Assembly (NCBI GenBank): GCA_016927425.1
Contig: JAFGMR010000072.1
Span: 1 to 64,000, forward strand
Direction of reading: 5' to 3'
DNA length: 64,000 nt
Source: Methanotrichaceae archaeon
GTDB lineage: Archaea; Halobacteriota; Methanosarcinia; Methanotrichales; Methanotrichaceae
The translations under genes and the position numbers were made by a program. The notes below the pieces were generated by a model. The model did no database searches, was not told where the DNA came from, and saw only the letters and a list, made by a program, of their open reading frames with translations. This document shows, one piece after another, positions 30,637 through 64,000 of the stretch (within the stretch, counting starts at the first letter, position 1; the number at the start of each line of letters is the position of its first letter).

Positions 30637-30680
30637 TTCCAATCCATAACGGATTCAAGGGCGAAGAGTGTCAGAAATAA

Positions 30681-30689
30681 TTTATATAT
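30681..30689 (+). promoter_or_regulatory. TATA box for leaderless pentapeptide gene
   Basis: AATAATTTATATATGG is centred 25 bases before the ATG at 30710, predicting a leaderless message. Confidence 0.6.
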
Positions 30690-30709
30690 GGGGGCGTGAA
30701 AGTCTTATT

Positions 30710-33445
30710 ATGCACTCCTCTTTAACTCGATTTGCCTTTGGAGCGTGTTTGCTTCTAATTGTTCTAATCTCCTCGTCTTTTGCAGTTGAAGAAAGCCCGC
30801 CTAAGAATATCCTCATATTTGCCTCTTACAATCCAGGCCTGAGTTGGACGGATTCCGTCGGAAGCGAGATAGAGAATGAATTATCCATATACTACCCCAC
30901 CGCAGATTTCTCTTTTGATTATATGGATACCAAAAAGCAGCCTCCCACCAATTCTCGCCTGGCCGAATTGAAGGAATTGTATCAAAATACATATAAAAAT
31001 CGCCATTTTGATGTTATCATCTGTTCGGATGATGATGCATTCGTGTTCCTGCTCGACAACAGAGATGAGCTGTTTCCAGGAACTCCAGTGGTCTTTTGTG
31101 GAGTAAACTTCTTCGAAGACGATATGCTTGCCGGCAAGAATAACTTCACTGGTGTGGTGGAGGCGTTCGATCTAGCTGGTACCATCTCACTGATGCTCAA
31201 CTTGCATCCAAATACAAAGCAAATCGTTTTAGTTAATGACCGGACAACGACTGGTAAAGCCAACAGAGAGGTCGTAAACCAGACCCTTCCGAGCTTCAGC
31301 ACAAATGTCACCTTCGCTTTGTGGGATAACATGACTGTAGATGAGCTCCAGAGGAATGCCTCTTCTCTGCATGAAGGAAGCTTGATCCTTCTCTTGAATT
31401 ACAATCGCGATCGGGAAGGAAGATCCCTGACTCATGAGGAGAGCACATGGATTTTAAGAAGCGTAAGCTCGGTTCCAATTTATGGCACGCGAGATGTCTA
31501 CATGGGATTCGGCGTGCTTGGCGGGGTGATTACCACAGGTCCAGTCCAGGGTGGATTGGCAGCGGACCTCGCTCTTCGGATCCTCCGAGGCGAACGCGCG
31601 GACGATATCCCGGTTATAAAAGAGCTCCCCACCTTATACATCTTCGATATGGTGGAGCTGCGACGATTCAAGATCGATCTCTCCTCTCTTCCGCAGGGAA
31701 GCATAATTGTCAATCAGCCGTTTCAACCTCGGGTCGATCTCAGTTATAAGAACCTTAGCGGCTTGGACTTGTCCGGGGTGGACTTGAATCTCACCATTCT
31801 CGAGGGAGCTGATCTCAGTGGTGCGAACCTTAGCAGATCCTTTTTGTGGGGTTCCATCATAGGCCACGCCAATCTTGTCGGAACTAATTTAAGCGGCGCA
31901 GTCATGCCATCCGGCGCTCTCACCGGGGCAGATCTCTCCCGAGCATATCTCAGAGGCGCTTTTATGCCGCTAGACTATATAGTTGAAGCAAATCTGACCG
32001 AGGCGGATCTATCAGGTTCTTTTATGGATCAGGTCATGATGGATAATTCAACGATGGTCGGAGCCAAGCTGGATGGGACAAGCCTCTGGGCTGCGAAGAT
32101 CAGCTATGCAAACCTTGACGGGGCAAGCCTCATAAAAGCATTCATGAACCGTGCCACATTACAGAAATCCCATTTGAATGGAGCCAATCTGACAGGAGCA
32201 AGCCTGGTTGGCGCTGACCTGATCGATGCTACCGTCACTTATGCAGACCTCTCCGGGGCAGATTTATCGGAGTCCCGTTGTGGGGGGGCGAACTTCTCTG
32301 GCTCCAAGCTGGTTGAATCAAAACTGGGTTTTGCAAACCTGACCAGCACAAATCTCAGCATGGCGAACCTCTTTGGTTCATATCTTGTGGCTTCGAATCT
32401 AACTAATTCCGATCTCTCTAATGCAGATCTATCCTATGCGAACCTCGAAAATGCCTTCATGCACCGAGTAAAGCTCGTTGGAGCCAAGCTGGTCGGCGCG
32501 CTTCTATCTGGCGTGCATCTGGAAGAATCCGATCTATCGCACTCCGATCTCGAAAACGCCGATCTGACCAATACATTGCTCAACAGATGCAACCTGACCG
32601 GTGCAGATTTGAAAGGTGCCAGGCTTCTCGGAACGGATTTCAATCTTGCCATTCTCGAAGATGCCAGCCTGAACAGAGCCAACATGGTTGGTGCCAAACT
32701 GAATTGGGCTGACATGAGCGGCAGCAGTCTTACAAATTGTCTGTTCTCAAGGGCGGAGCTTTTTGGAGCAAACCTGAGCAATTGCAACCTGAGCAGCTCG
32801 GACTTCACTCGCGCTTATTTGGTGAGGGCCAATCTAACTGGCTGCACTCTGAATGATACCCGCCTGGATTATACCGATCTTACAAACGCGAATCTGCGAA
32901 ATGCCTATCTAAGCGGTGTCGGGTTGCATAACGTATATCTGGATTATGCAGATCTGTCGGGTGCTAACCTTTCAGAATCCTACCTATATGGTGCCACATT
33001 AACGGGAACTGTCTTTAGCAAGGCGAACTTGAGGTCATCGCGTATATTTATGGTGAACTTTTTGGGTGGGGACTTCAGCGGCACAGATCTGAGGAATACC
33101 AGTCTCGCCCAGGTCTACATGAACAACACAAACCTATCGGGTGCGGATTTGAGCGGAGCCGTTATTTACGCATCTGCCATGGAAAACGTCGATCTCAGTG
33201 GTGCAAATCTCGAAGGATGTATCTTTGACACATCTGCCATGGAGAACGCTGATTTCAGTGGTGCAAATCTCGAAGGATGCAGCTTTGACACAACTGCCTT
33301 AGAGAACGCTGATTTCAGTGGTGCAAATTTAAAAGGGGTTAAGTACGATGAGATAGCGCTTCAGTATTTCGCCGTTTCAAAGCTCGATGGCGCTAGGATC
33401 AGCGCGGATCTGCAAAGGGACCTTGAAGAATTGCGGTCTGGATGA
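30710..33445 (+). CDS. Secreted fusion: ABC-type periplasmic binding domain + pentapeptide-repeat helix
   Basis: A 911-residue exported protein. Signal peptide at about 5-27 (FAFGACLLLIVLISSSFA). Residues about 30-330 resemble the ABC_sub_bind / sensor type of binding fold found in methanogen and bacterial sensors: NILIFASYNPGLSWTDSVGSEIE, DVIICSDDDAFVFL, LFPGTPVVFCGVNFF, IVLVNDRTTTGKANRE, VPIYGTRDVYMGFGVLGG. From about 345 to the end come some hundred A(D/N)LxX pentapeptides (GADLSGANLS..., ENADFSGANLEG...), which form a right-handed quadrilateral beta-helix. No kinase or membrane anchor is present. ATG 30710 is chosen over 30668 because the TATA box lies between them. Confidence 0.85.
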   Translation: MHSSLTRFAFGACLLLIVLISSSFAVEESPPKNILIFASYNPGLSWTDSVGSEIENELSIYYPTADFSFDYMDTKKQPPTNSRLAELKELYQNTYKNRHFDVIICSDDDAFVFLLDNRDELFPGTPVVFCGVNFFEDDMLAGKNNFTGVVEAFDLAGTISLMLNLHPNTKQIVLVNDRTTTGKANREVVNQTLPSFSTNVTFALWDNMTVDELQRNASSLHEGSLILLLNYNRDREGRSLTHEESTWILRSVSSVPIYGTRDVYMGFGVLGGVITTGPVQGGLAADLALRILRGERADDIPVIKELPTLYIFDMVELRRFKIDLSSLPQGSIIVNQPFQPRVDLSYKNLSGLDLSGVDLNLTILEGADLSGANLSRSFLWGSIIGHANLVGTNLSGAVMPSGALTGADLSRAYLRGAFMPLDYIVEANLTEADLSGSFMDQVMMDNSTMVGAKLDGTSLWAAKISYANLDGASLIKAFMNRATLQKSHLNGANLTGASLVGADLIDATVTYADLSGADLSESRCGGANFSGSKLVESKLGFANLTSTNLSMANLFGSYLVASNLTNSDLSNADLSYANLENAFMHRVKLVGAKLVGALLSGVHLEESDLSHSDLENADLTNTLLNRCNLTGADLKGARLLGTDFNLAILEDASLNRANMVGAKLNWADMSGSSLTNCLFSRAELFGANLSNCNLSSSDFTRAYLVRANLTGCTLNDTRLDYTDLTNANLRNAYLSGVGLHNVYLDYADLSGANLSESYLYGATLTGTVFSKANLRSSRIFMVNFLGGDFSGTDLRNTSLAQVYMNNTNLSGADLSGAVIYASAMENVDLSGANLEGCIFDTSAMENADFSGANLEGCSFDTTALENADFSGANLKGVKYDEIALQYFAVSKLDGARISADLQRDLEELRSG

Positions 33446-51290: not shown

Positions 51291-51460
51291 TCTGTCGTGG
51301 CAGACATCCCTCCCTCTGGCGAACCCGTATAAAAGCTTTTGCGCACGGCCTCGCATCGATGGGGTGCGACCTTGGGCGGATGAATCCTTCGATCATCAAC
51401 CATCGTCATGGAAAGATATAAATTACTTTAAGTTGATGTTGTCGATTGGGGAATTCGATC

Positions 51461-52156
51461 ATGATCTCTATCTCCAATATGGGCATCATAGCCCTCCTAC
51501 TCCTCTTCATCTCGGCCTTGCCGTCTGCTGCGGATGATGAGCTGAAGTACGGATCCAAGGTCCTCTGGCACGATGTGGATGAGGCCCGGCCCCTCTGTCC
51601 ATTCTATGCCGGGCCAGAGTTCGCCTTCGTGGATGCCGGCATCCGGGGCATATTCGATCCCGAGGATCCGGTCTATGTGAACATCGATGCCCGGGACAGC
51701 CAGGTGAATGAGAACGATGTCCGGCTCACTCCATTTGGCAGCATCCCTGCTGGAACTCAGGTCAGGATAGACGACCCGGACTATGGCTATAAGCTCTCTC
51801 GCTTCGGCATCATGGGCTTTCCGGCTGCTGAGATGCGCTACTTCGATGTGGATGGGGATATGGCATACAGCCTCGATGATCCGGTCTACCTGGATATCAA
51901 GCCGGGTGTCGTCAATGCCGGGGATATCCGCATCAATGGATACCTAGGCTACGAGGCAGGGGGCCGGGTCAGGGACGCCCAGGCCGATAGCGACAAGCCG
52001 ACCCTGACGCTTCCCGGAATGCTCAGCTTCTTCAACGCCAATGGGAACATCAACAACGGCGGATGGGGCATCTACGATTATGGGGACCTGGTCTACATGG
52101 ATACCCAGTATCCATTCTACGAGGTGACGATAAACGACGTGAGGTTGACGAGCTGA
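51461..52156 (+). CDS. Secreted repeat protein, paralogue of 52517-53233
   Basis: Secreted 231-residue protein. Signal peptide at about 1-24 (MGIIALLLLFISALPSAA). Three repeats of roughly 60-70 residues follow, each ending like (D)DPVYxxID......NENDVRLTPFGxxPAGTQV: at DPEDPVYVNIDARDSQVNENDVRLT, DDPVYLDIKPGVVNAGDIRI, YGDLVYMDTQYPFYEVTINDVRLT. The family is not one I can name, but the next gene is a clear relative. ATG 51461; a GATATAAATTAC box is at 51414-51425. Confidence 0.8.
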   Translation: MISISNMGIIALLLLFISALPSAADDELKYGSKVLWHDVDEARPLCPFYAGPEFAFVDAGIRGIFDPEDPVYVNIDARDSQVNENDVRLTPFGSIPAGTQVRIDDPDYGYKLSRFGIMGFPAAEMRYFDVDGDMAYSLDDPVYLDIKPGVVNAGDIRINGYLGYEAGGRVRDAQADSDKPTLTLPGMLSFFNANGNINNGGWGIYDYGDLVYMDTQYPFYEVTINDVRLTS

Positions 52157-52516
52157 GGGCCTTCCCCTCTGCTCTTGTTTGGAAGATCGGATCCGGTATC
52201 GGCTGGGATCACGTTAGCGATGTCAGATGGGCAAGCGAGTCCTTTATGAGTTGGAATTTGGAACTATCTGAGAATACGAGCATTATCGGATGCCATTTAT
52301 CCCTGGGAATCCCCCGAATTGATTTTTTATACGATCATATGCTGAGTTCGGGATCTAAGAAAAACCATCCGATTTCAGAATTACGATCCATTCGGTTGAC
52401 TACCAAAAAATACTTATGTTATCGAGATATTCTATATCTAATATGCTAGATCAGTGGTGGTGGCGCGAGGTGTGTGTGTGCGGCCATTTCCATTGGAGAT
52501 TAGGAGGAATAAAACC
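52157..52516. other. Intergenic region, no gene seen
   Basis: 360 bases without a convincing ORF. AT-rich towards the end, with TTCTATATCTAATATG near 52430, a possible promoter for the next gene. Confidence 0.4.
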
Positions 52517-53233
52517 TTGAAGAGAGTAGCAACTCGCGCTCTGGCTGCAAGCCTTGCATTGATGCTGTTGCTCGCCGGGGCTGTCGCATACGACTTTGGA
52601 TCCAAGGTGGCGCCCGGGGATGCGGATATAGGACTGCTTCTGAACAACCTGAGCGATCCACGCATCGCCTACTGGGATATCGGAGTGCCTCCAGGGGTCT
52701 ATGATGCGGGAGACGTGGTCTATCTGGACATTGCAAACAACAGCTTGGTGGATGCCTACGATATTCGGCTCACTCCATATGGCGCCCAGGCTGCGGGAAG
52801 CAAGGTTCTCCCCAGCGATAACGATATCAATGCTCCATTGAAGCTCCTGGATAGCTCGACAGAGATATCGTACATGGAGCTGGATGGGACTCCCGGCTAC
52901 AACCTGATGGACTCGGTCTACATCCATATCAACACGACAATAAATACTCATCAAAACGACATCAGATTGGTGAAGGTGGGCGGCCTGGATGCCGGAACGA
53001 GAGTCCTCGACTTCCACGAGGACAACAACATGCCCTTGAGCACGCTCTTGAGGTTCCCGGTTCCGCCGGGAGGTCCATTTGCCACCATCCGGTTCAACAA
53101 CGTGAACGGTAACTTCGATGTCTTCGGCCAGCCGGCCTATGACCTACCGGACGTGGTCTACATCGATTGCTCAACGCCTGGAGCAGCGCCCATTGGCTTC
53201 GTTATTCCAAACGATGTGCGCCTCTCCCTCTAG
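52517..53233 (+). CDS. Secreted repeat protein, paralogue of 51461-52156
   Basis: Secreted 238-residue protein. TTG 52517 follows TTAGGAGGAATAAA, an excellent ribosome site, and the sequence then gives MKRVATRALAASLALMLLLAGAVAY, a signal peptide. The body has the same units as the upstream gene: DAGDVVYLDIANNSLVDAYDIRLTPYGAQAAGSKV, MDSVYIHINTTINTHQNDIRLVKVGGLDAGTRV, LPDVVYIDCSTP...NDVRLSL. Function unknown; probably surface exposed. Arose by tandem duplication. Confidence 0.8.
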   Translation: MKRVATRALAASLALMLLLAGAVAYDFGSKVAPGDADIGLLLNNLSDPRIAYWDIGVPPGVYDAGDVVYLDIANNSLVDAYDIRLTPYGAQAAGSKVLPSDNDINAPLKLLDSSTEISYMELDGTPGYNLMDSVYIHINTTINTHQNDIRLVKVGGLDAGTRVLDFHEDNNMPLSTLLRFPVPPGGPFATIRFNNVNGNFDVFGQPAYDLPDVVYIDCSTPGAAPIGFVIPNDVRLSL

Positions 53234-55313: not shown

Positions 55314-55411
55314 TGGCATTCCACAAGCGGGCAATTCTATTCACTTTATTTAACCATAAACTTTAATACTTGTGTCCAGTAGTTACAGATATACCGGGAT
55401 TGGGGATATTC

Positions 55412-58400
55412 ATGGAGTTCGTTGATATCTGTGGAGGACGTGGCCTGGGGTCGGTTCGTCGGTGGCGGGCCTCTTTGCCACGATGCATTGGGGTCATCTT
55501 AGCTCTCCTTCTCCTGCTGGGCCTGCTCTGCGTCCCCTGTGCGGGTCAGAGCGACTATGAGCTGAGGGATGCAATGGTCACTCCCGACTATGGATATGGA
55601 GACTTCAACTACTCGGCAAAGATCGGCATCACCGGAACCACAACCGATGTCTCTGGCAAGTACAAGGTCGTGCTTAGGATCTACGATGGAGATCGCCTGC
55701 TTCGCGAGGCAAGCTCGATGGAGCGCCGTCTTAGCAACTCGGAGATCGGAAACCGCCTGAGCGAGCCTTTCCTCTTCGGCCCTTTCAACTTCCAGAGGGA
55801 CTTTGGGATAGTGACTACGAAGAACGCATCCTTCGAGTTCGTCCTCCTCAAGTCGGGAACGGAGCAGGCAAGGTCCAGCCTTAGAGGTCCCGAGGTCGAG
55901 CCGCCTCATATCATCGGTACACCCCAATTCAACGCAAAGCCCTACTTCTTCCAGGGGCTTTCCGTCTCCACCAGCTTCAAGGACCAGGCCGGACTTGCGC
56001 CTTCTGCGCACATCGAGCTGAAGGGCCCCCTGGGAACCGATTTGGAGCGATCCTGGAACACGGGCGAGCTTGCTTGCAGCGGGTCTGGGACGGTTTATAC
56101 CTCTCGCATCTTGGAAGATACCTCCTCTTATCGTGAGGGGGGAAACTTCAGCTTCGAGTTCGTCTACAACAACCTCCGCATGGATCCGATGGTCTTTGGA
56201 CCCTACAACTTCACTGTTATGCCCTATACGCCTTCCATCGAGAGGTTCTCGGTCGCTCCCGCCATTGACTACACGAACTTCACAATTAGGGCTTTTGTAA
56301 GCGACGAAGGCGCAAGAACCGTCGGGGGAAGCACCATGGGGAGCAGGGCCGATCTCATCATCAGCCATCCCTCGAAGGGATCTGTAACCTACGCCGACTC
56401 CCAGCCCAGGGTCGAGGGCGGCTACTTGGTCTTCGAGTGGGATGAAACTGAGGTTCCCTTCGATCGAGGCGATGTAGACCTCAGCGATCCTCGCAAAGGC
56501 GGCCAGCCATTCGAGGCCCGGCTTGTCTACGTAAACGATAACTGGGATTTTGGGGTGGAGAGCTCAAACGTCTCCTTCATCGTCGTAGAGGAGGTTCCAA
56601 CGCTCGATCTGCGCTACAGCCCGGTCGTCTACATGAGAAGCGGCCAGATAGCGAGGGAGTCCATAACCGCGACCATCGGCTTCTCCAAGGGCGCAGGGGA
56701 AGCGCGGCTCGCGCTTGCCGGTCCCGGACTGGATTATAATCGTACCGTCGAGGGAACATCGCTTGGCGGGAATAAATACCGCTATGAGTGGCAGCTGACA
56801 TTAGACGATAGCAATAGCAATCATAACTACACGCTATCGCTCGCATTTCTTCACCCAGCCCTTGAAGGAGGCTCCTTCGAGTTCGAAGGGAGAAACGTAT
56901 CTGTCCGCCCGATATCGGTGGAGTACAGGGACTCAATTGTGCTCCCATCCGGGGGAAGGTGGAACGAGAGCTTCGCCTACTCGACGAATGTGGACTCGAG
57001 CGTCGATTGCGAGATAATGCTCCAGATATTCAACCCCTGCAGCCGGGAGTGGGAGGACTGGAGCTCCAAGAAGGTCTCCGCCGGCATCTCGGCGCTCAAC
57101 TGGACGCTAAACCCATTCCGCTATGAGTGTCCGGGAATGGAAGGATCCACCGCCATGTACCGTTTCAAGGCGAGCTTTCAGGGCGTCGATTATATCTCTA
57201 GGCCTTTCTTTGGGCCTTTTATATCCGCAAGCGCTCCTATGCTCGTCTCCTTCGACCTCTCGCCCACGGTCTACGTCCCTGTCGGCGGAAGCACGATCGA
57301 AGCCGTCCGGGCGACGGTTGAGTATGCGGGGGGAATGGGCGATATGAGATTGATCGTCTCAGGACCTGGCTTGAGCTTTGACGAGACTTCAGCGGGCGTC
57401 GCTTTGGGCGGAGATCGCTATCGATACGATTGGACCGTGCCCTTCCGCTACAGCCATGCTAACAACAACTACACAGCAACGCTATCCTTCTCCCATCCCT
57501 CCCTAGCAGGCGGCTACCTCTTCGAGAATAGGACTGTCGAGGTCCGGCCAATCTACCTAGCCTTTGAGGAGGGCTCTGTCGTCCCCTCCCGCGGTCGCTG
57601 GAACGACTCATTCCTCTACTCGGTCAAGGTAAACTCGACAACTGATATGGACCTCGCCCTCCAGATCTACAATCCCTGCAGCATGGAATGGGAGGATCGT
57701 GAAGGTGGGGCGGTCGGCCGGGGAACAAGCAGCCTGAACTGGACTCTCTCACCATACGAGTACTCCTGTCCGGATATCACAGGGGCGCTTTCGAGGTACA
57801 GGTTCAAAGCCCGATTCGACGATATCGAGTACGGATCCCGGGTCTATTACGGGCCGCAGATCACAGGAGGCCAGCCGGAGCTGATATCACTCGATTACGA
57901 TCGAGAGGTATACGTGAGCGAGGGATCCCTCACTTACCAGAGGATAAGGGCGACAATCGACAGCCCGCTTGGCCAGGGCGTTTCGCAGCTGAGGGTCTAC
58001 GGTCCGGGCAAGAGCGTGGACGTCTCATCCCCTGGCCAGCCCCTGGGCGGAGACAAGTATGCCTACTGGTGGTCGATACCCTTTGGGGTCGAAAACGTTG
58101 GAAACCACACCATATCCCTGAGGTTCCTCCATCCGGAGCTCGAGGGAGGTGGATACTCGTTTGCAGATGCGCCAATGGAGGTGCTCCTAGTTGAGGGCAT
58201 GCCCGCAGAGCCTCAGCTCGTAGACCTCAACTATACGCCGCTCCTCCTCATCGACGGCGACGAGGTGGCATACCAGGAGATCGAGTCAAAGGTTGCTTCT
58301 CTGGCTGGAGCAGGCGAGCTCAAGCTCAGCCTGACAGGTCCGGACAAGGACCTGGAGGAGTTCCCCGAGGCAGAGGAGATGGGATCGAACATCTACAGGT

Positions 58401-59752
58401 ACAGGTGGTCCGTCCCGTTCGATCGGTCCAACGACCAGAATACCTACAAGATATCGCTTGCCTATATCCTGGGCGAGAATAGCTACGCATTGGGAGATCG
58501 AATGATGGCTGTTGCGATGCGCGATGGGCCAGCTCCCAAGATCTTGGAGCCTACGCTCACCGTGGAGTACGATCGGACCCTCTACGTGCCGCGTGCCGGA
58601 AGCGCGGACCAGATCGTCAGGGCGACGGTTAACTACTCACTGGGGATGGGCAAGCTTGAGCTCAACATCTCCGGAGCGGGGATGGATTTCAGCGGTATCG
58701 AGGAAGGTCGCCGCGCAAATGGCCAGAGGTATCTCTACGAGTGGAGCGTTCCCTTCAACTCGAGCCATATCGATGAGAGCTACACGCTAGCCCTCACTTA
58801 CATGCACCCAAGCCTACCTGGCGAATCGTACAGGTTCGCCGACCGATACATGCAGGTTAAAGCTGCCTCCGGTGGAGAAGAGGCAAGGCTGGCCTTCGAG
58901 AACGCGCAAGTGCTTCCGGAGAACGGGTCTTCATTCACCCATTTCGCATACTATGTAGACCTGAAGACCGATCTCGACGAGGCAGATGTGGAGCTATTGA
59001 CATCCGATCCCGGATCCAGCATCTGGACATCGCAAGGCTTGGTACACTACGATGGTTCGAATGCCACGCTCTGTTGGCCCGATGTGATGATCGACGGCGA
59101 ATCATACGGCCTTGCCAGGTACAGGTTCAAGTACGGAACCGCTTTCTCCAATATATCCCAAGGGCCGGCCTTAGAAGAGCCATCGGCCCTCGTCGTTGCG
59201 AGCGTCGACCCGATTGAAGGTTCCCTCTACTCCACAACGCCGCTCATAGGTGAGATCTCCCGGGTATACACATATACCTTCACAGCGGACGTTCGGGGAT
59301 CCCTGGGGGAGGGATCGACTGAGGTGAGGCTTGATGTATACGATCCCGTGGCCAGACGCTGGATCAATGCGGGCAGCCAGACCTACGATCCAAGCAGGAC
59401 GCGGCTGTTATACCTGGTCAACTTCGCAGGGCTTTCCTTCCAGGAACTGTTCTTGAACGAGACCAAGTACAGGTTCGTTGCAAGGGACAGGATCCTCGGC
59501 GAGTTTCCCGGCCCGAATATCACAGTCAACCTTAGATCCGAGCGTGCGATTCGCGTTGGAGACAAGATCACATATCAGGTGGATGTGAGGTCGGTGCAGC
59601 CTGCAAAGATCGCGCTCGCCTATACAACCGATAACGTCCATTGGCATCGGTCCGATAGTAGGGACTACGATTTAGCGGATGAAGGGTGGAAGACGCTCGA
59701 GTGGGAGGAGTATCCGCGTTATTACGCCTATGAGTTCGAGGTGATGAGCTAG
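55412..59752 (+). CDS. Giant secreted Ig-like repeat surface protein
   Basis: Exported 1446-residue protein. A signal/anchor helix at about 27-47 (IGVILALLLLLGLLCVPCAG) is followed by tandem beta-sandwich-type modules. Type A units (five, each near 105 residues; DNA about 56600, 57240, 57880, 58210 and 58550) share VY...G..IRATV....G...L.GPG...LGG.KY.Y.W..PF...NYT.SL.FLHP.L.GG. Type B units (at about 56920, 57560 and, weaker, 58890) share VPS.GRWN.SF.YS..V and LQI.NPCS.EWED...LNWTL.P. Many NxS/T sites suggest N-glycosylation. No C-terminal anchor is visible. First gene of the FtsZ-like operon; ATG 55412 lies downstream of a TTTATTTAACC box. Confidence 0.88.
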   Translation: MEFVDICGGRGLGSVRRWRASLPRCIGVILALLLLLGLLCVPCAGQSDYELRDAMVTPDYGYGDFNYSAKIGITGTTTDVSGKYKVVLRIYDGDRLLREASSMERRLSNSEIGNRLSEPFLFGPFNFQRDFGIVTTKNASFEFVLLKSGTEQARSSLRGPEVEPPHIIGTPQFNAKPYFFQGLSVSTSFKDQAGLAPSAHIELKGPLGTDLERSWNTGELACSGSGTVYTSRILEDTSSYREGGNFSFEFVYNNLRMDPMVFGPYNFTVMPYTPSIERFSVAPAIDYTNFTIRAFVSDEGARTVGGSTMGSRADLIISHPSKGSVTYADSQPRVEGGYLVFEWDETEVPFDRGDVDLSDPRKGGQPFEARLVYVNDNWDFGVESSNVSFIVVEEVPTLDLRYSPVVYMRSGQIARESITATIGFSKGAGEARLALAGPGLDYNRTVEGTSLGGNKYRYEWQLTLDDSNSNHNYTLSLAFLHPALEGGSFEFEGRNVSVRPISVEYRDSIVLPSGGRWNESFAYSTNVDSSVDCEIMLQIFNPCSREWEDWSSKKVSAGISALNWTLNPFRYECPGMEGSTAMYRFKASFQGVDYISRPFFGPFISASAPMLVSFDLSPTVYVPVGGSTIEAVRATVEYAGGMGDMRLIVSGPGLSFDETSAGVALGGDRYRYDWTVPFRYSHANNNYTATLSFSHPSLAGGYLFENRTVEVRPIYLAFEEGSVVPSRGRWNDSFLYSVKVNSTTDMDLALQIYNPCSMEWEDREGGAVGRGTSSLNWTLSPYEYSCPDITGALSRYRFKARFDDIEYGSRVYYGPQITGGQPELISLDYDREVYVSEGSLTYQRIRATIDSPLGQGVSQLRVYGPGKSVDVSSPGQPLGGDKYAYWWSIPFGVENVGNHTISLRFLHPELEGGGYSFADAPMEVLLVEGMPAEPQLVDLNYTPLLLIDGDEVAYQEIESKVASLAGAGELKLSLTGPDKDLEEFPEAEEMGSNIYRYRWSVPFDRSNDQNTYKISLAYILGENSYALGDRMMAVAMRDGPAPKILEPTLTVEYDRTLYVPRAGSADQIVRATVNYSLGMGKLELNISGAGMDFSGIEEGRRANGQRYLYEWSVPFNSSHIDESYTLALTYMHPSLPGESYRFADRYMQVKAASGGEEARLAFENAQVLPENGSSFTHFAYYVDLKTDLDEADVELLTSDPGSSIWTSQGLVHYDGSNATLCWPDVMIDGESYGLARYRFKYGTAFSNISQGPALEEPSALVVASVDPIEGSLYSTTPLIGEISRVYTYTFTADVRGSLGEGSTEVRLDVYDPVARRWINAGSQTYDPSRTRLLYLVNFAGLSFQELFLNETKYRFVARDRILGEFPGPNITVNLRSERAIRVGDKITYQVDVRSVQPAKIALAYTTDNVHWHRSDSRDYDLADEGWKTLEWEEYPRYYAYEFEVMS

Positions 59753-61204
59753 ATGAAGAAGGCCTTGGTTGTAACGCTAGTGCTTCTCCTCTCCCTCTTC
59801 CTCTCCCTCCCGGTCCACGGGGGCGAGGTACTCGGGCCTGGCGGGGGAGGAGGGGATGGCGGCGATGGGGGCGACGGCTCCAGCAGCAGTAGCAGGAGCA
59901 AGCTCACCCTCGACAACTTCGTGAGGTATCTCGAGAGCTGGCAGAAGGATAAGCCGACCCAGTATCAGTACATGGTAAAGCTCCTGAGCACGGGCAATCC
60001 CGAGTCCTACCAGACCCCGAATGTATGGCTCCAGTACGCTGGAAACCAGACCGTGAGCAGGAACGAGCCGCTCAATCTGGGATTCTACGTCCAGAATCCA
60101 AATCCCCTCGATCTGAGGAGGACGGTCTTCGTGGATCTCGAGGCAAAGCTCCCGGGCGAGACGAAATACCAGAAGCTCAACCTGTACACCCAAGCGGTCC
60201 AGCCCTTCGACTACCAGGAGAAGGGGAAGGTGAACTGGACCGCCAAGATCTGGCCAGAGTTCGCATCGTTCAGCTGCCTCGAAAAGGTTGGAGATGTGCG
60301 GCTTCGGGCGCTTGTTTCAGACGGTAGCAACAAATGGTACTCCAGTGCGAGCGGAAACAGCCGTCCATACTACGGCGAGCTCGTCTTGAATGTCACGAAC
60401 TCACCTCCTGTGATGGATAACGCAACGCTCATCTGCACTGAGTCGCCCAGGTACAACGACCCCATCGAGTACGTCGCCTCGGTCTACGATCCCGATGGCG
60501 ATCTCATGAATGTGACGCTTCACATCCTGGATGAGGCGGGCTGGGAGGTTAGGAACGAGACACAGGACGTCAAGTCCGGACAGGTTCGCTTCAAGGCTGC
60601 GCAGTACGGCTTCTTCGGAGAGGCCGATGCCGGGAAGAACTACACGTACTATTACACGATCGGAGACGGCATCGATACCGTCTGCTATCCGCCCAGCGAG
60701 GATGGAAACGCTACGCTGGAGGGGCCTCGCATCAGGTCAAATCCGAAGCTCTGGGTGGAGACCCCTCATGTAGAGCCCGAGGACGATAACTACTACTATT
60801 GGGGAGAGTATAACTTCAGCCTGGAGATGAGAAACCAAGAGCCGTACAACATGGAGATCCCTGTGACACTTAAGATCAGAACGGAGGACAAGAACTGGAA
60901 GCCTGTTGCAAAGAGGACGGTCTTGGTAACCCCGGACTCAAAGCGAGAATATTTCCCAACCAGCGATGCCTTCGATGTCCTGGATAGAGGATCCCAGTTC
61001 TCCTTCCGCTTCGAGTATCCCGAGTACGATCAGAATAACAGCATGTCGATTGATATGCAATGGGCAAACCCGTTGAACGAGAGGCTTATGAAAAACGGCC
61101 TTGCATCCTTCCCCATAGCGATCAACTTGCTGTTGCTGATGGTGCTTCCGCTCCTCGGGGGGATATTCCTGGAGAGGTGGATGGGCAAAGGGAGGATGGG
61201 GTGA
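59753..61204 (+). CDS. Secreted protein with C-terminal membrane anchor
   Basis: A 483-residue exported protein beginning directly after the stop codon of the giant surface protein. N-terminal signal helix (ALVVTLVLLLSLFLSLPVHG), a Gly/Asp/Ser linker (about 25-48), then mostly beta modules: LGFYVQNPNPLDLRRTVFVDLEAKL, EYVASVYDPDGDLMNVTLHI (a fibronectin/PKD-like strand pattern) and YNFSLEMRNQEPYNMEIPVTLKI. A single hydrophobic helix near 453-472 (AINLLLLMVLPLLGGIFLE) and a short basic tail would anchor it. No family name is certain. Confidence 0.82.
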   Translation: MKKALVVTLVLLLSLFLSLPVHGGEVLGPGGGGGDGGDGGDGSSSSSRSKLTLDNFVRYLESWQKDKPTQYQYMVKLLSTGNPESYQTPNVWLQYAGNQTVSRNEPLNLGFYVQNPNPLDLRRTVFVDLEAKLPGETKYQKLNLYTQAVQPFDYQEKGKVNWTAKIWPEFASFSCLEKVGDVRLRALVSDGSNKWYSSASGNSRPYYGELVLNVTNSPPVMDNATLICTESPRYNDPIEYVASVYDPDGDLMNVTLHILDEAGWEVRNETQDVKSGQVRFKAAQYGFFGEADAGKNYTYYYTIGDGIDTVCYPPSEDGNATLEGPRIRSNPKLWVETPHVEPEDDNYYYWGEYNFSLEMRNQEPYNMEIPVTLKIRTEDKNWKPVAKRTVLVTPDSKREYFPTSDAFDVLDRGSQFSFRFEYPEYDQNNSMSIDMQWANPLNERLMKNGLASFPIAINLLLLMVLPLLGGIFLERWMGKGRMG

Positions 61205-61208
61205 TCCG

Positions 61209-61826
61209 ATGAGCATAATGCAGGCCTCGTTTGTTGCCATTGTATTGCTGCTCATCCTCGGATGTGGAGTACATCTCCTGAACGTGAGGAGGATTCACGG
61301 AAGGATAGAGAGGCTGGAGAGCAAGGCCGTTCCAATGGAGAAGCTGTTACCTGACCTGTACAGCTGCCAGGGATCCAACTTCAACTCCCTCATTTTAGCC
61401 GCTTGGATCCTATTCCTTGCGGGAGCTGCCTTTCTATATTTGCTTACGCCCGCGGTATTCCCGGATGGAAACTACTTCGCATTTCTTCCAGGGCTTTCAA
61501 GCAGCTGGGTGGGCCTTGTCATCTTCGGGCTTTTAGGATATCTGATAATGATCTTGGTAATTGTTGGAGGCGAGAAGCTGCCCGAGAGCTGCCGGTGCTT
61601 CCGTCTAGCAGAACTATACGGGTACTACACGCTTAGCCGAAACGAGAAGCGGGTGATGATAGCAGCAATTCCGCTTCTCTGGATATCGATATTGATCTCT
61701 ACCCACATGGCAACCGTATATCCTGAGCTCTGGGCGGCTGAATGGTGGACGGCCTTCCTCCTCCTCTTGGCCTCTCTCGTGCTGCTGATCTGGCCTGTGG
61801 CGAAGGAGATGTTCGAGGGGAGATGA
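61209..61826 (+). CDS. Multi-pass membrane protein of FtsZ-like operon
   Basis: A 205-residue membrane protein with about five hydrophobic helices: VAIVLLLILGCGVHLL (8-23), ILAAWILFLAGAAFLYLLTPAV (62-83), WVGLVIFGLLGYLIMILVIVGG (100-121), IAAIPLLWISILIST (151-165) and FLLLLASLVLLIWPVA (182-197). The stretch between helices 1 and 2 (RRIHGRIERLESKAVPMEKL) could be a coiled-coil cytosolic loop. Four bases after the previous gene and two bases before the FtsZ-like gene, so it likely bridges the filament to the membrane. No known family. Confidence 0.8.
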   Translation: MSIMQASFVAIVLLLILGCGVHLLNVRRIHGRIERLESKAVPMEKLLPDLYSCQGSNFNSLILAAWILFLAGAAFLYLLTPAVFPDGNYFAFLPGLSSSWVGLVIFGLLGYLIMILVIVGGEKLPESCRCFRLAELYGYYTLSRNEKRVMIAAIPLLWISILISTHMATVYPELWAAEWWTAFLLLLASLVLLIWPVAKEMFEGR

Positions 61827-61827
61827 T

Positions 61828-63405
61828 ATGAGGCTATGCATTGTTGGGATCGGTGGGACGGGCGGCAAGGTTGCCCAGGAGTTCCTTGGAAACGAGGACC
61901 TGGAGTCTTTCAAGCTTTCAGGGTTGACCTGTGGGGAGCATATCACATCGGGGGGGATCAAGGGGGTATGGCTGGAGTCGGATGAGAACGATGCCAAGAA
62001 TAAGAACAAGTTCTTCAAGGACGGGAGGGAGAATCCCAGCGATTACCCGCTTTACTTCATACCCCATAACGTTGTGCCGGACAACCATCCGGTTCACGTT
62101 GCCATCAACGAGAAGTACGGATACGATATCAAGAAGCAGGGCTATGTGAGAGACGCCCAGTACCTCAAGGCGATCTTCGAGATATTCGAGGACGACCCCG
62201 TCATCAAGGCAAAGGCGCAGGGTCTCAGCTCCACGAACCCGATCTTCGACTGTGCCTGGGCAGCGGTTAGGCCCTACACTACAATGGGTAAGGGAAAGTG
62301 CGACGGCGTCCTCTTCATTATATCGCTTGGCGGAGGGACTGGGACAGGGTTTGTAAACCCAATAGTGCAGCATATCAGATCCACGGGGAAGGGGGACTAT
62401 CCAGTCTTCGTGATGGGGGCACTGACTGAAGAAGGGACGGCGTCGGACAGGGAGCAGTACGCAAAGGAGGGAAAGAGGAACCTTGGGGCGATCAGCTCCT
62501 TATACGACCTCCTCACCAAGGGGGAGGGCGTCGACGGCCTGATCCTCGTGGACAACCAGATCCTTCTCCAAAGATGCGAGGGCGATTATACCCTTGCAAA
62601 CCGCTACCTGCACCAGATAGCGCTTCCCCTCGTGGCTGCGAGGGACTATCCTGGAGAGAAGCCTCCTAGCCCTGCCGTTCGGGCGTTCTGCGTTGAGGGA
62701 TGGAGCTTCCCTCCAATCCTGGTCCCTTGCTATGCCAAGATCAAAAGAAGGTCCAATCCGGAGGCGGCCCTCGTCGAGGAGGCGTTCTCTAAGGGGTGCC
62801 TCTTCGGCTGCCAGCCGGAGGACGCCGATAAGGCAGCGGTCTTTTGCAGGGGCTACATCGACTCAAACGAGATCAGAAAAGCCATGCAGGCACGCATTCC
62901 CCGCCTTACCGATGATCAGATCGCTGTATGGCGAAAGCTCGGTGACAACAGGCATGACGAGGTCTTGATCCTCCTTAGAAATCCATACGGCTCGCCTGGG
63001 GCTTGCCAGAAGGAGGGAACGCTTGAGTGGAGGCTTCACAGGGTGATGACAAGCGCCATCGGCTATATCGAGGATCACAGATCCGACCTCCTTTACATCA
63101 AGGGCTACTCGGAATCGAGCGAGAAAGACGAGCTTACGGTCACCGATGAGACCAGAAACGCCCTGGATAATTACTTCTACGGGGAACGGGGTCTAAAGGA
63201 GGAGCTTAAGCTGGCGATGGGTCGGCTGGAGGGAGGGGAGAAGCCCTTCTTCAACCGTCCTCTGCGGATATTCGATCTCCTCAAGGCTGGCCACGGGTCA
63301 GCGGGCCCTATGGGCGATGAGTGCGCTGAGCTCACGCCGGCCCAGAGGGCAATGATACAGAGGATGATCCAGGAAGAGATCAAGTCGATGGGCCTCAAAG
63401 CCTGA
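61828..63405 (+). CDS. Divergent tubulin/FtsZ-superfamily GTPase
   Basis: A 525-residue protein with the FtsZ/tubulin GTP-binding fold. The N-terminal nucleotide loop is IVGIGGTGGKVAQEFL (5-20), and the tubulin signature is SLGGGTGTGFVNPIVQHI with GGGTGTG at about 168-174; LILVDNQILLQ (238-248) matches the strand before the core helix. I see no NxDxxD catalytic T7 loop, so polymer GTPase activity may be altered. The C-terminal 200 residues are unlike FtsZ or CetZ. It may belong to the FtsZ-like families described by Makarova and Koonin as linked to membrane remodelling, but this needs comparison. Coupled to membrane and surface genes. Confidence 0.85.
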   Translation: MRLCIVGIGGTGGKVAQEFLGNEDLESFKLSGLTCGEHITSGGIKGVWLESDENDAKNKNKFFKDGRENPSDYPLYFIPHNVVPDNHPVHVAINEKYGYDIKKQGYVRDAQYLKAIFEIFEDDPVIKAKAQGLSSTNPIFDCAWAAVRPYTTMGKGKCDGVLFIISLGGGTGTGFVNPIVQHIRSTGKGDYPVFVMGALTEEGTASDREQYAKEGKRNLGAISSLYDLLTKGEGVDGLILVDNQILLQRCEGDYTLANRYLHQIALPLVAARDYPGEKPPSPAVRAFCVEGWSFPPILVPCYAKIKRRSNPEAALVEEAFSKGCLFGCQPEDADKAAVFCRGYIDSNEIRKAMQARIPRLTDDQIAVWRKLGDNRHDEVLILLRNPYGSPGACQKEGTLEWRLHRVMTSAIGYIEDHRSDLLYIKGYSESSEKDELTVTDETRNALDNYFYGERGLKEELKLAMGRLEGGEKPFFNRPLRIFDLLKAGHGSAGPMGDECAELTPAQRAMIQRMIQEEIKSMGLKA

Positions 63406-63474: not shown

Positions 63475-64000
63475 ATGATCGCAGAAATGAGGGCTTTCAT
63501 GAATAGCCAGTCGGGATCAAATGGGATCGAGCGCCCCTGGATCATCCGCTCTCTCCTAGTCCTTTTACTCTTTCTCTCTCCCTCCCTCCTAATTGGGACG
63601 TCCGCCGCGCTCGATGTCTCATCGAGTCAGGTATCTCCGGGCGACTCGATCGTTGTGAGCGGAGAGGCATCCCCCGGCGATGATGTCACGTTGAGCTCCA
63701 GCTTCCGGATGGATATTCCGGTAGTCGATGGCAGGTATGAGTACCTGGCCGATGGCGTGAGCATCCCAAGCAAGCCCAACCAGTTCACAGCAACAGCAAG
63801 CAATGTTGCCGATATGAACGTGGGCGTGAAGATGGGAATCTGGCTGACAAAGAGCATTCCAGCATCGTCGGGCCGGGCGAGCATCTCCCAGGGTGGCATC
63901 CCGCCCGGCCGGTATACGCTGAAGGTCTCGGGGCAGGCGGAGGAGGGCGCGTCTTTCGTGGAGATGGAGATCAGGGCCCGGACGACGGTGGAGGCAGATT
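63475..64000 (+). CDS. Secreted protein, partial at window end
   Basis: Open frame from ATG 63475 to the window edge (175 codons). N-terminal ~25 polar residues, then a signal helix IIRSLLVLLLFLSPSLLIGTSAA (about 23-45), followed by an Ig-like start DVSSSQVSPGDSIVVSGEASPGDDVTLSS and PPGRYTLKVSGQAEEGASFVEMEI. It resembles the beta-rich surface proteins upstream and begins 70 bases after the FtsZ-like gene, so it may belong to the same locus. The rest lies beyond the window. Confidence 0.75.
   Translation, partial: MIAEMRAFMNSQSGSNGIERPWIIRSLLVLLLFLSPSLLIGTSAALDVSSSQVSPGDSIVVSGEASPGDDVTLSSSFRMDIPVVDGRYEYLADGVSIPSKPNQFTATASNVADMNVGVKMGIWLTKSIPASSGRASISQGGIPPGRYTLKVSGQAEEGASFVEMEIRARTTVEAD

Follow-up and report, generated by a model that had tools for sequence, protein, structure and literature searches.

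A four-gene operon that joins an apparently undescribed family within the known tubulin superfamily to a new set of partners, namely two membrane proteins and a large Ig-like surface protein, is conserved across the genera of the Methanotrichaceae. It was analyzed in a stretch of 64,000 nucleotides (hereafter the window) from a 66,077-bp contig (C11) of a Methanotrichaceae genome of 2.3 Mb in 94 contigs. The comparison set contained no second genome of the same genus, and the nearest relative found was Candidatus Methanocrinis natronophilus, with a GTPase identity of 76–77%. An earlier note on this DNA had claimed four tightly packed genes with gaps of 0–4 bases, and an ORF check recovered them as a plus-strand unit at 55412–63405 with intergenic gaps of 0, 4, and 1 bases. 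The locus comprises the following features, assigned on the evidence given in brackets:

55345–55353, + strand: TTTATTTAA, candidate archaeal TATA-box-like element (by eye)
55412–59752, + strand: gene 1, secreted Ig-like repeat protein, 1446 aa (ORF, hydropathy, repeat self-comparison)
59753–61204, + strand: gene 2, type-I membrane protein, 483 aa (ORF, hydropathy)
61209–61826, + strand: gene 3, protein with five transmembrane helices, 205 aa (ORF, hydropathy)
61828–63405, + strand: gene 4, tubulin-superfamily GTPase of a new family, 525 aa (profiles, tree, alignment)
63475–64000 and on to contig position 64893, + strand: probable fifth, accessory gene, encoding a secreted protein of 472 aa (C-terminal domain comparison)

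The ATG at 55412 was preferred as the start of gene 1 over an upstream TTG, which would give 1460 aa, because of the TATA-like element at 55345–55353, located by eye ~25 bp ahead of a plausible transcription start. The 472-aa protein had no Pfam match, and its C-terminal domain was also found in proteins of 176–194 aa (and in one longer ORF) encoded directly 3' of the GTPase gene in six relatives. Upstream of the operon, the window contains rnhB and a class-V aminotransferase gene. Many relatives share these flanks, and the position is therefore probably the ancestral site. Two related secreted proteins of ~240–260 aa are encoded at 51446–52156 and 52454–53233 (+ strand); they contain repeated ‘DLxDxVYxD...NDIRLT’ segments and have no Pfam match. 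At seven further loci with the module, rnhB is preceded by one to three copies of homologous genes. Elsewhere in the window, a 925-aa protein with a long pentapeptide-repeat array (15 matched stretches) is encoded at 30668–33445 (+ strand).

The GTPase was detected in 35 of 37 Methanotrichaceae genomes; M. harundinacea 6Ac (G014) carries the module, and second copies, present as whole operons, occur in G003, G020, and G023. When 37 loci were fetched and compared by tblastn with the four proteins, all of them contained the GTPase, 35 had genes 2 and 3 adjoining it in conserved order, and 34 had gene 1. Exceptions to the four-gene order were two loci cut by contig ends (L061 and L069) and one lacking a detectable gene 1 (L046). 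The latter (G030:C1), in a single-contig genome, also has an N-terminally shortened gene 2, a state that possibly reflects decay or rearrangement. In the relatives, the module genes mostly overlap by a 4-base ATGA. Hence, the question of whether the same neighbors recur in other archaea can be answered for the Methanotrichaceae, where the same four genes occur in the same order across genera, and this conservation excludes chance as an explanation of the gene order.

Consistent with these results, the 14 genomes that contained gene 2 in a sample of 394 genomes of the phylum were exactly those with a full-length GTPase. Other matches to the GTPase profile in this sample scored at most 41 bits and were tubulin-superfamily genes, mostly of 370–440 aa and CetZ-type where read. 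Across 496 pairs of loci, sequence identity in any one of genes 2–4 tracked that in the other two with correlations of 0.88–0.90; gene 1 followed less closely (0.67–0.76), and shared descent explains part of these correlations. Viral contigs and plasmids yielded no relative.

Outside the Methanotrichaceae, only one genome of the 394-genome sample (G092) carried the operon (L104, G092:C75). Its GTPase places inside the Methanotrichaceae tree, and therefore horizontal transfer or mis-binning is likely. Other genomes of the same group (f17) lacked the operon, and the GC content of the operon contig, 0.41, is close to the 0.43–0.45 of the genome. With transfer and binning error both plausible on these grounds, we dropped this locus as independent evidence from beyond the family. 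A vWA protein is encoded next to the operon there, two more ORFs, one of them weakly similar to gene 1, run on the opposite strand, and G092 yielded no mcrA match. The two module copies of Methanocrinis natronophilus (G023; L037 and L059) have diverged from each other; the copy orthologous to that of the window lies away from the rnhB/aminotransferase site, at which the window copy is located.

Gene 4 encodes a soluble protein without transmembrane segments according to hydropathy, and its identification as a GTPase with a GGGTGTG motif proved correct. Two nucleotide-binding loops were located:

61846–61866, + strand: T1 loop GIGGTGG, residues 7–13 (alignment; glycines conserved)
62329–62349, + strand: T4 signature GGGTGTG, residues 168–174 (alignment; invariant among aligned members)

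In Pfam searches, the window GTPase matched Tubulin (PF00091) with an E-value of 2.3e-6, under the curated cut-off, and Tubulin_2 (PF13809) at 0.02, scoring 14.6 bits against a cut-off of 27 (best member E 4e-4). All 24 aligned members of the family matched PF00091 with E-values below 0.1 (best 1.7e-9). FtsZ_C (PF12327) matches in this genome were confined to contigs C54 and C62, with none at the locus. A profile of the GTPase family matched tubulin, CetZ, and FtsZ structures in the PDB (E 6e-5 to 7e-4) across the GTPase domain, and the tubulin match extended into the C-terminal domain to include its CDP...RG stretch. With hhalign, CetZ ranked first (2e-12), followed by FtsZl1 (4e-7) and FtsZ (1.5e-6). 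In a maximum likelihood tree of 60 sequences, calculated by a quick method and with eukaryotic tubulins left out, all 25 GTPase members fell into a single clade with a long stem (SH-aLRT 98), separate from those of FtsZ, CetZ (97), and FtsZl1. Thus, the profile search of 61828–63405 proposed in the earlier note places gene 4 in the tubulin superfamily, and the tree places it in a clade of its own outside those of FtsZ and CetZ. As the neighbors are constant rather than freely varying and the GTPase does not group with FtsZ or CetZ, the interpretation of the operon as a functional unit is well supported.

The T7 motif completes the active site of the neighboring subunit in polymers of this superfamily. 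Its consensus, NxDxx[DE], was found in none of the 25 GTPase members versus 32 of 32 FtsZ and 16 of 16 CetZ-type sequences, although one sub-clade has kept acidic residues near the T7 position. T7 is a catalytic feature and does not define descent. We predict that the GTPase binds GTP and that hydrolysis would be slow or reliant on other residues, and polymerization in the manner of FtsZ or CetZ could have been lost together with T7. The main alternative to a cytoskeletal role, a monomeric or dimeric GTP-bound switch that would act via both membrane proteins to gate how the surface protein is exported, assembled, or turned over, draws on this loss and on the lack of any further cytoskeletal component in the operon. 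We nevertheless consider such a switch unlikely, as the tubulin/CetZ-type core is kept beyond the GTPase domain and the family has an FtsZ-like terminus, both of which fit a scaffold. The members, 509–581 aa in length, end in a variable linker and a short conserved C-terminal helix in the alignment. FtsZ likewise ends in a linker and an end peptide, and the latter binds membrane tethers. A structure model of the GTPase built from two sequences reached a pLDDT of only 36, and the assignment of the C-terminal half thus rests on profile alignment.

Gene 2 has the architecture of a membrane-anchored secreted protein, as previously claimed: a signal peptide, a Gly/Ser-rich stretch, a beta-rich ectodomain, one C-terminal transmembrane segment identified by hydropathy, and a short basic cytoplasmic tail. 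For gene 3, hydropathy supported the five claimed helices (the windows at residues 91–109 and 102–120 represent one helix), but the proposed coiled-coil loop amounts to no more than a basic, cytoplasmic stretch of ~35 residues. The basic charge of both long loops suggests that they are cytoplasmic.

The gene 1 product has a single N-terminal signal or transmembrane segment and no other hydrophobic segment, and is therefore probably secreted. The claimed repeats are real, as self-comparison within the window protein gave scores of up to 299 versus a shuffled maximum of 48. Five Ig-like units were delineated:

56600–56914, + strand: Ig-like unit A1, 105 aa (repeat alignment; AlphaFold2 model with pLDDT 96.3, all-beta; Ig/CARDB-type PDB neighbors)
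57245–57553, + strand: Ig-like unit A2 (repeat alignment)
57884–58207, + strand: Ig-like unit A3 (repeat alignment)
58220–58534, + strand: Ig-like unit A4 (repeat alignment)
58556–58879, + strand: Ig-like unit A5 (repeat alignment)

An AlphaFold2 model based on these five repeats of ~105 residues and four from a Methanocrinis homologue was an all-beta sandwich with a mean pLDDT of 96.3. Most of its best PDB matches were Ig-type domains, among them the CARDB domain of Pyrococcus furiosus, although the matches were weak (E-values slightly over 0.001, TM scores 0.4–0.6). The confident all-beta model and these neighbors therefore indicate that the label ‘Ig-like’ is correct at the level of fold class. 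Gene 1 is the least conserved of the four genes and ranges from 537 to 1460 aa among the relatives, nearly all of which share its C-terminal ~280 aa. This variability would be expected of a self/non-self recognition module comparable to the Ig-domain modules of Thermococcales (PMC8416519). We regard this explanation as hardly probable, because the C-terminal part is conserved, the 537-aa versions are at least 90% identical among close relatives, effector and immunity genes are lacking, and neither PADLOC nor PHROGs gave a match of weight.

At 11 of 38 loci, the module is adjoined by genes for vWA-domain surface proteins, which can lie before or after it, on either strand, and in several arrangements. 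The genomes hold only 5–10 vWA_2 matches each, and by a rough count ~0.2 adjacent cases would be expected under random gene placement. This contrast overstates the case, because arrangements are shared among related genomes and surface genes tend to cluster. The window locus, like most of the others, has no vWA neighbor.

Gene order, strict co-occurrence, co-evolution, topology, family membership, retained GTP-binding loops, the loss of T7, and the vWA neighbors are direct observations. Building on them, we propose, at even confidence for and against, that the operon encodes one envelope-spanning complex that joins the outer Ig-like protein to a GTP-binding, tubulin-like submembrane scaffold. 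The Ig-like repeat protein would be exported and held at the surface, and the type-I and five-helix proteins would carry the connection through the membrane. At the cytoplasmic face, the tubulin-superfamily protein would bind GTP, attach to its membrane partners via the linker and the conserved C-terminal helix, and, by assembling into a slowly hydrolyzing or non-hydrolyzing oligomer or filament, cluster the complex and set its position. The output would likely be the spatial organization of a structure for surface adhesion or cell contact, in which vWA-domain surface proteins would often take part. This proposal is favored by the strict co-occurrence of the GTPase and gene 2, the co-varying identities of genes 2–4, the tubulin-type profile matches and FtsZ-like terminus, the conserved order of genes 2–4 at 35 of 37 loci (with gene 1 at 34), the ATGA overlaps and whole-operon second copies, and the adjacency of vWA genes despite their small number per genome. 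However, linked genes can share expression without contact between their products, T7 has been lost, and most loci lack vWA neighbors. The earlier note's single machine running from surface to cytoskeleton therefore stands as a functional unit with conserved order and neighbors, whereas we infer the physical interaction of its parts, their polymerization into filaments, and the adhesion output. A more specific version, to be taken as tentative, is an analogue of cytoskeleton-linked adhesion receptors, in which a hydrolysis-poor tubulin-family scaffold would be coupled via the two membrane proteins to the extracellular Ig-like protein (and to vWA proteins at some loci) as a transmembrane link from filament to surface.

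The earlier note had also suggested that the module shapes the sheath or links it to the cell. Two observations are in line with this: the module is nearly confined to the Methanotrichaceae, which all have sheath proteins, and known sheath-assembly genes were not found in the study of archaeal sheaths (PMC11576556), which reports SH proteins in all Methanotrichales and mentions neither tubulin, FtsZ, nor an operon. However, the closed genome of M. soehngenii GP6 (G015) contains seven matches to an M. thermoacetophila SH protein, yet searches with the GTPase, gene 2, and gene 3 found nothing there, and the module is therefore dispensable for a sheath. The SH query was identified as Mthe_0667 by position and gene count in genome G016, which we take to be M. 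thermoacetophila PT. Conversely, G092 has the module without an SH match, albeit on a possibly foreign contig, and no other lineage of the sampled phylum has the module, yet SH proteins also occur in Methanomicrobia and ANME-1 (PMC11576556). Hence, a sheath function is improbable. The identification of gene 1 as the sheath protein MspA was likewise dropped: MspA is Mthe_1069 (PMC10470525), and the operon lies near 0.43 Mb in G016, unlike the place expected of gene 1069. Membership of the tubulin superfamily would also suit a role at the septum, where the GTPase would act with FtsZ between cells of a filament and the surface proteins would build the end plug. Methanothrix does divide within filaments, and its plug proteins have not been identified (PMC11576556). 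Yet we give this explanation very little weight, as the genome is already equipped with two FtsZ and a CetZ (L003), the locus adjoins rnhB and the aminotransferase gene rather than division genes, and M. soehngenii GP6 divides in sheathed filaments without the module.

Methanothrix and related archaea rank among the major producers of methane. According to the Methanocrinis paper (PMC10598746), there are no data on the genetic determinants of the cytoskeleton for this family. The conserved operon provides a concrete candidate for a link between a divergent tubulin-family protein and proteins of the outer surface. We found no prior description of the GTPase family or the module in the open-access literature, to which our search was confined.

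Several known systems resemble parts of the module. The VARTIG Ig-domain modules of Thermococcales (PMC8416519) likewise begin with a large archaeal surface protein that carries Ig domains and varies in length, but the partner genes differ and tubulin or FtsZ is not mentioned in that study. SH proteins occur in the same organisms and some have Ig-like domains (PMC11576556), but they are encoded by different genes and are present in a species without the module. Archaeal FtsZ1 and FtsZ2 share the GGGTGTG loop and, by profile, the core fold with the GTPase family, which differs in lacking NxDxxD and any FtsZ_C match at the locus. In profile comparison, the GTPase family comes closest to CetZ (E 2e-12; 24% identity across 184 columns), with which it has in common the T4 region, the segment VDG.ILVDNQ, and portions of the C-terminal domain. 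Unlike CetZ, the GTPase family forms a separate clade, lacks the T7 acidic residues, has a poorly alignable N-terminal part of 150 residues, is longer (509–581 versus about 370 aa), and has conserved operon partners, none of which have been reported for CetZ. A parallel in organization is offered by the FtsZl1/Tubulin_2 (PF13809) vWA systems, a predicted membrane-associated machine in which vWA proteins are found in the majority of operons (Makarova and Koonin 2010, PMC2875224). In contrast to FtsZl1, the GTPase of the window scores below the PF13809 cut-off, is shorter (525 aa versus 738–799 aa for archaeal FtsZl1 ORFs), and has a C-terminal part that aligns with CetZ and tubulin instead of a long coiled-coil plus helical C-terminal half, and its family falls into a separate clade; moreover, its vWA proteins are optional and extracellular, and no protein kinase or P-loop GTPase partner was seen. 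In both systems, nonetheless, the operon combines a divergent FtsZ-like protein with proteins of the membrane and the surface, which in the module include vWA proteins at only a minority of loci. The module described here adds a second case in which FtsZ-like proteins have membrane proteins and vWA surface proteins as partners.
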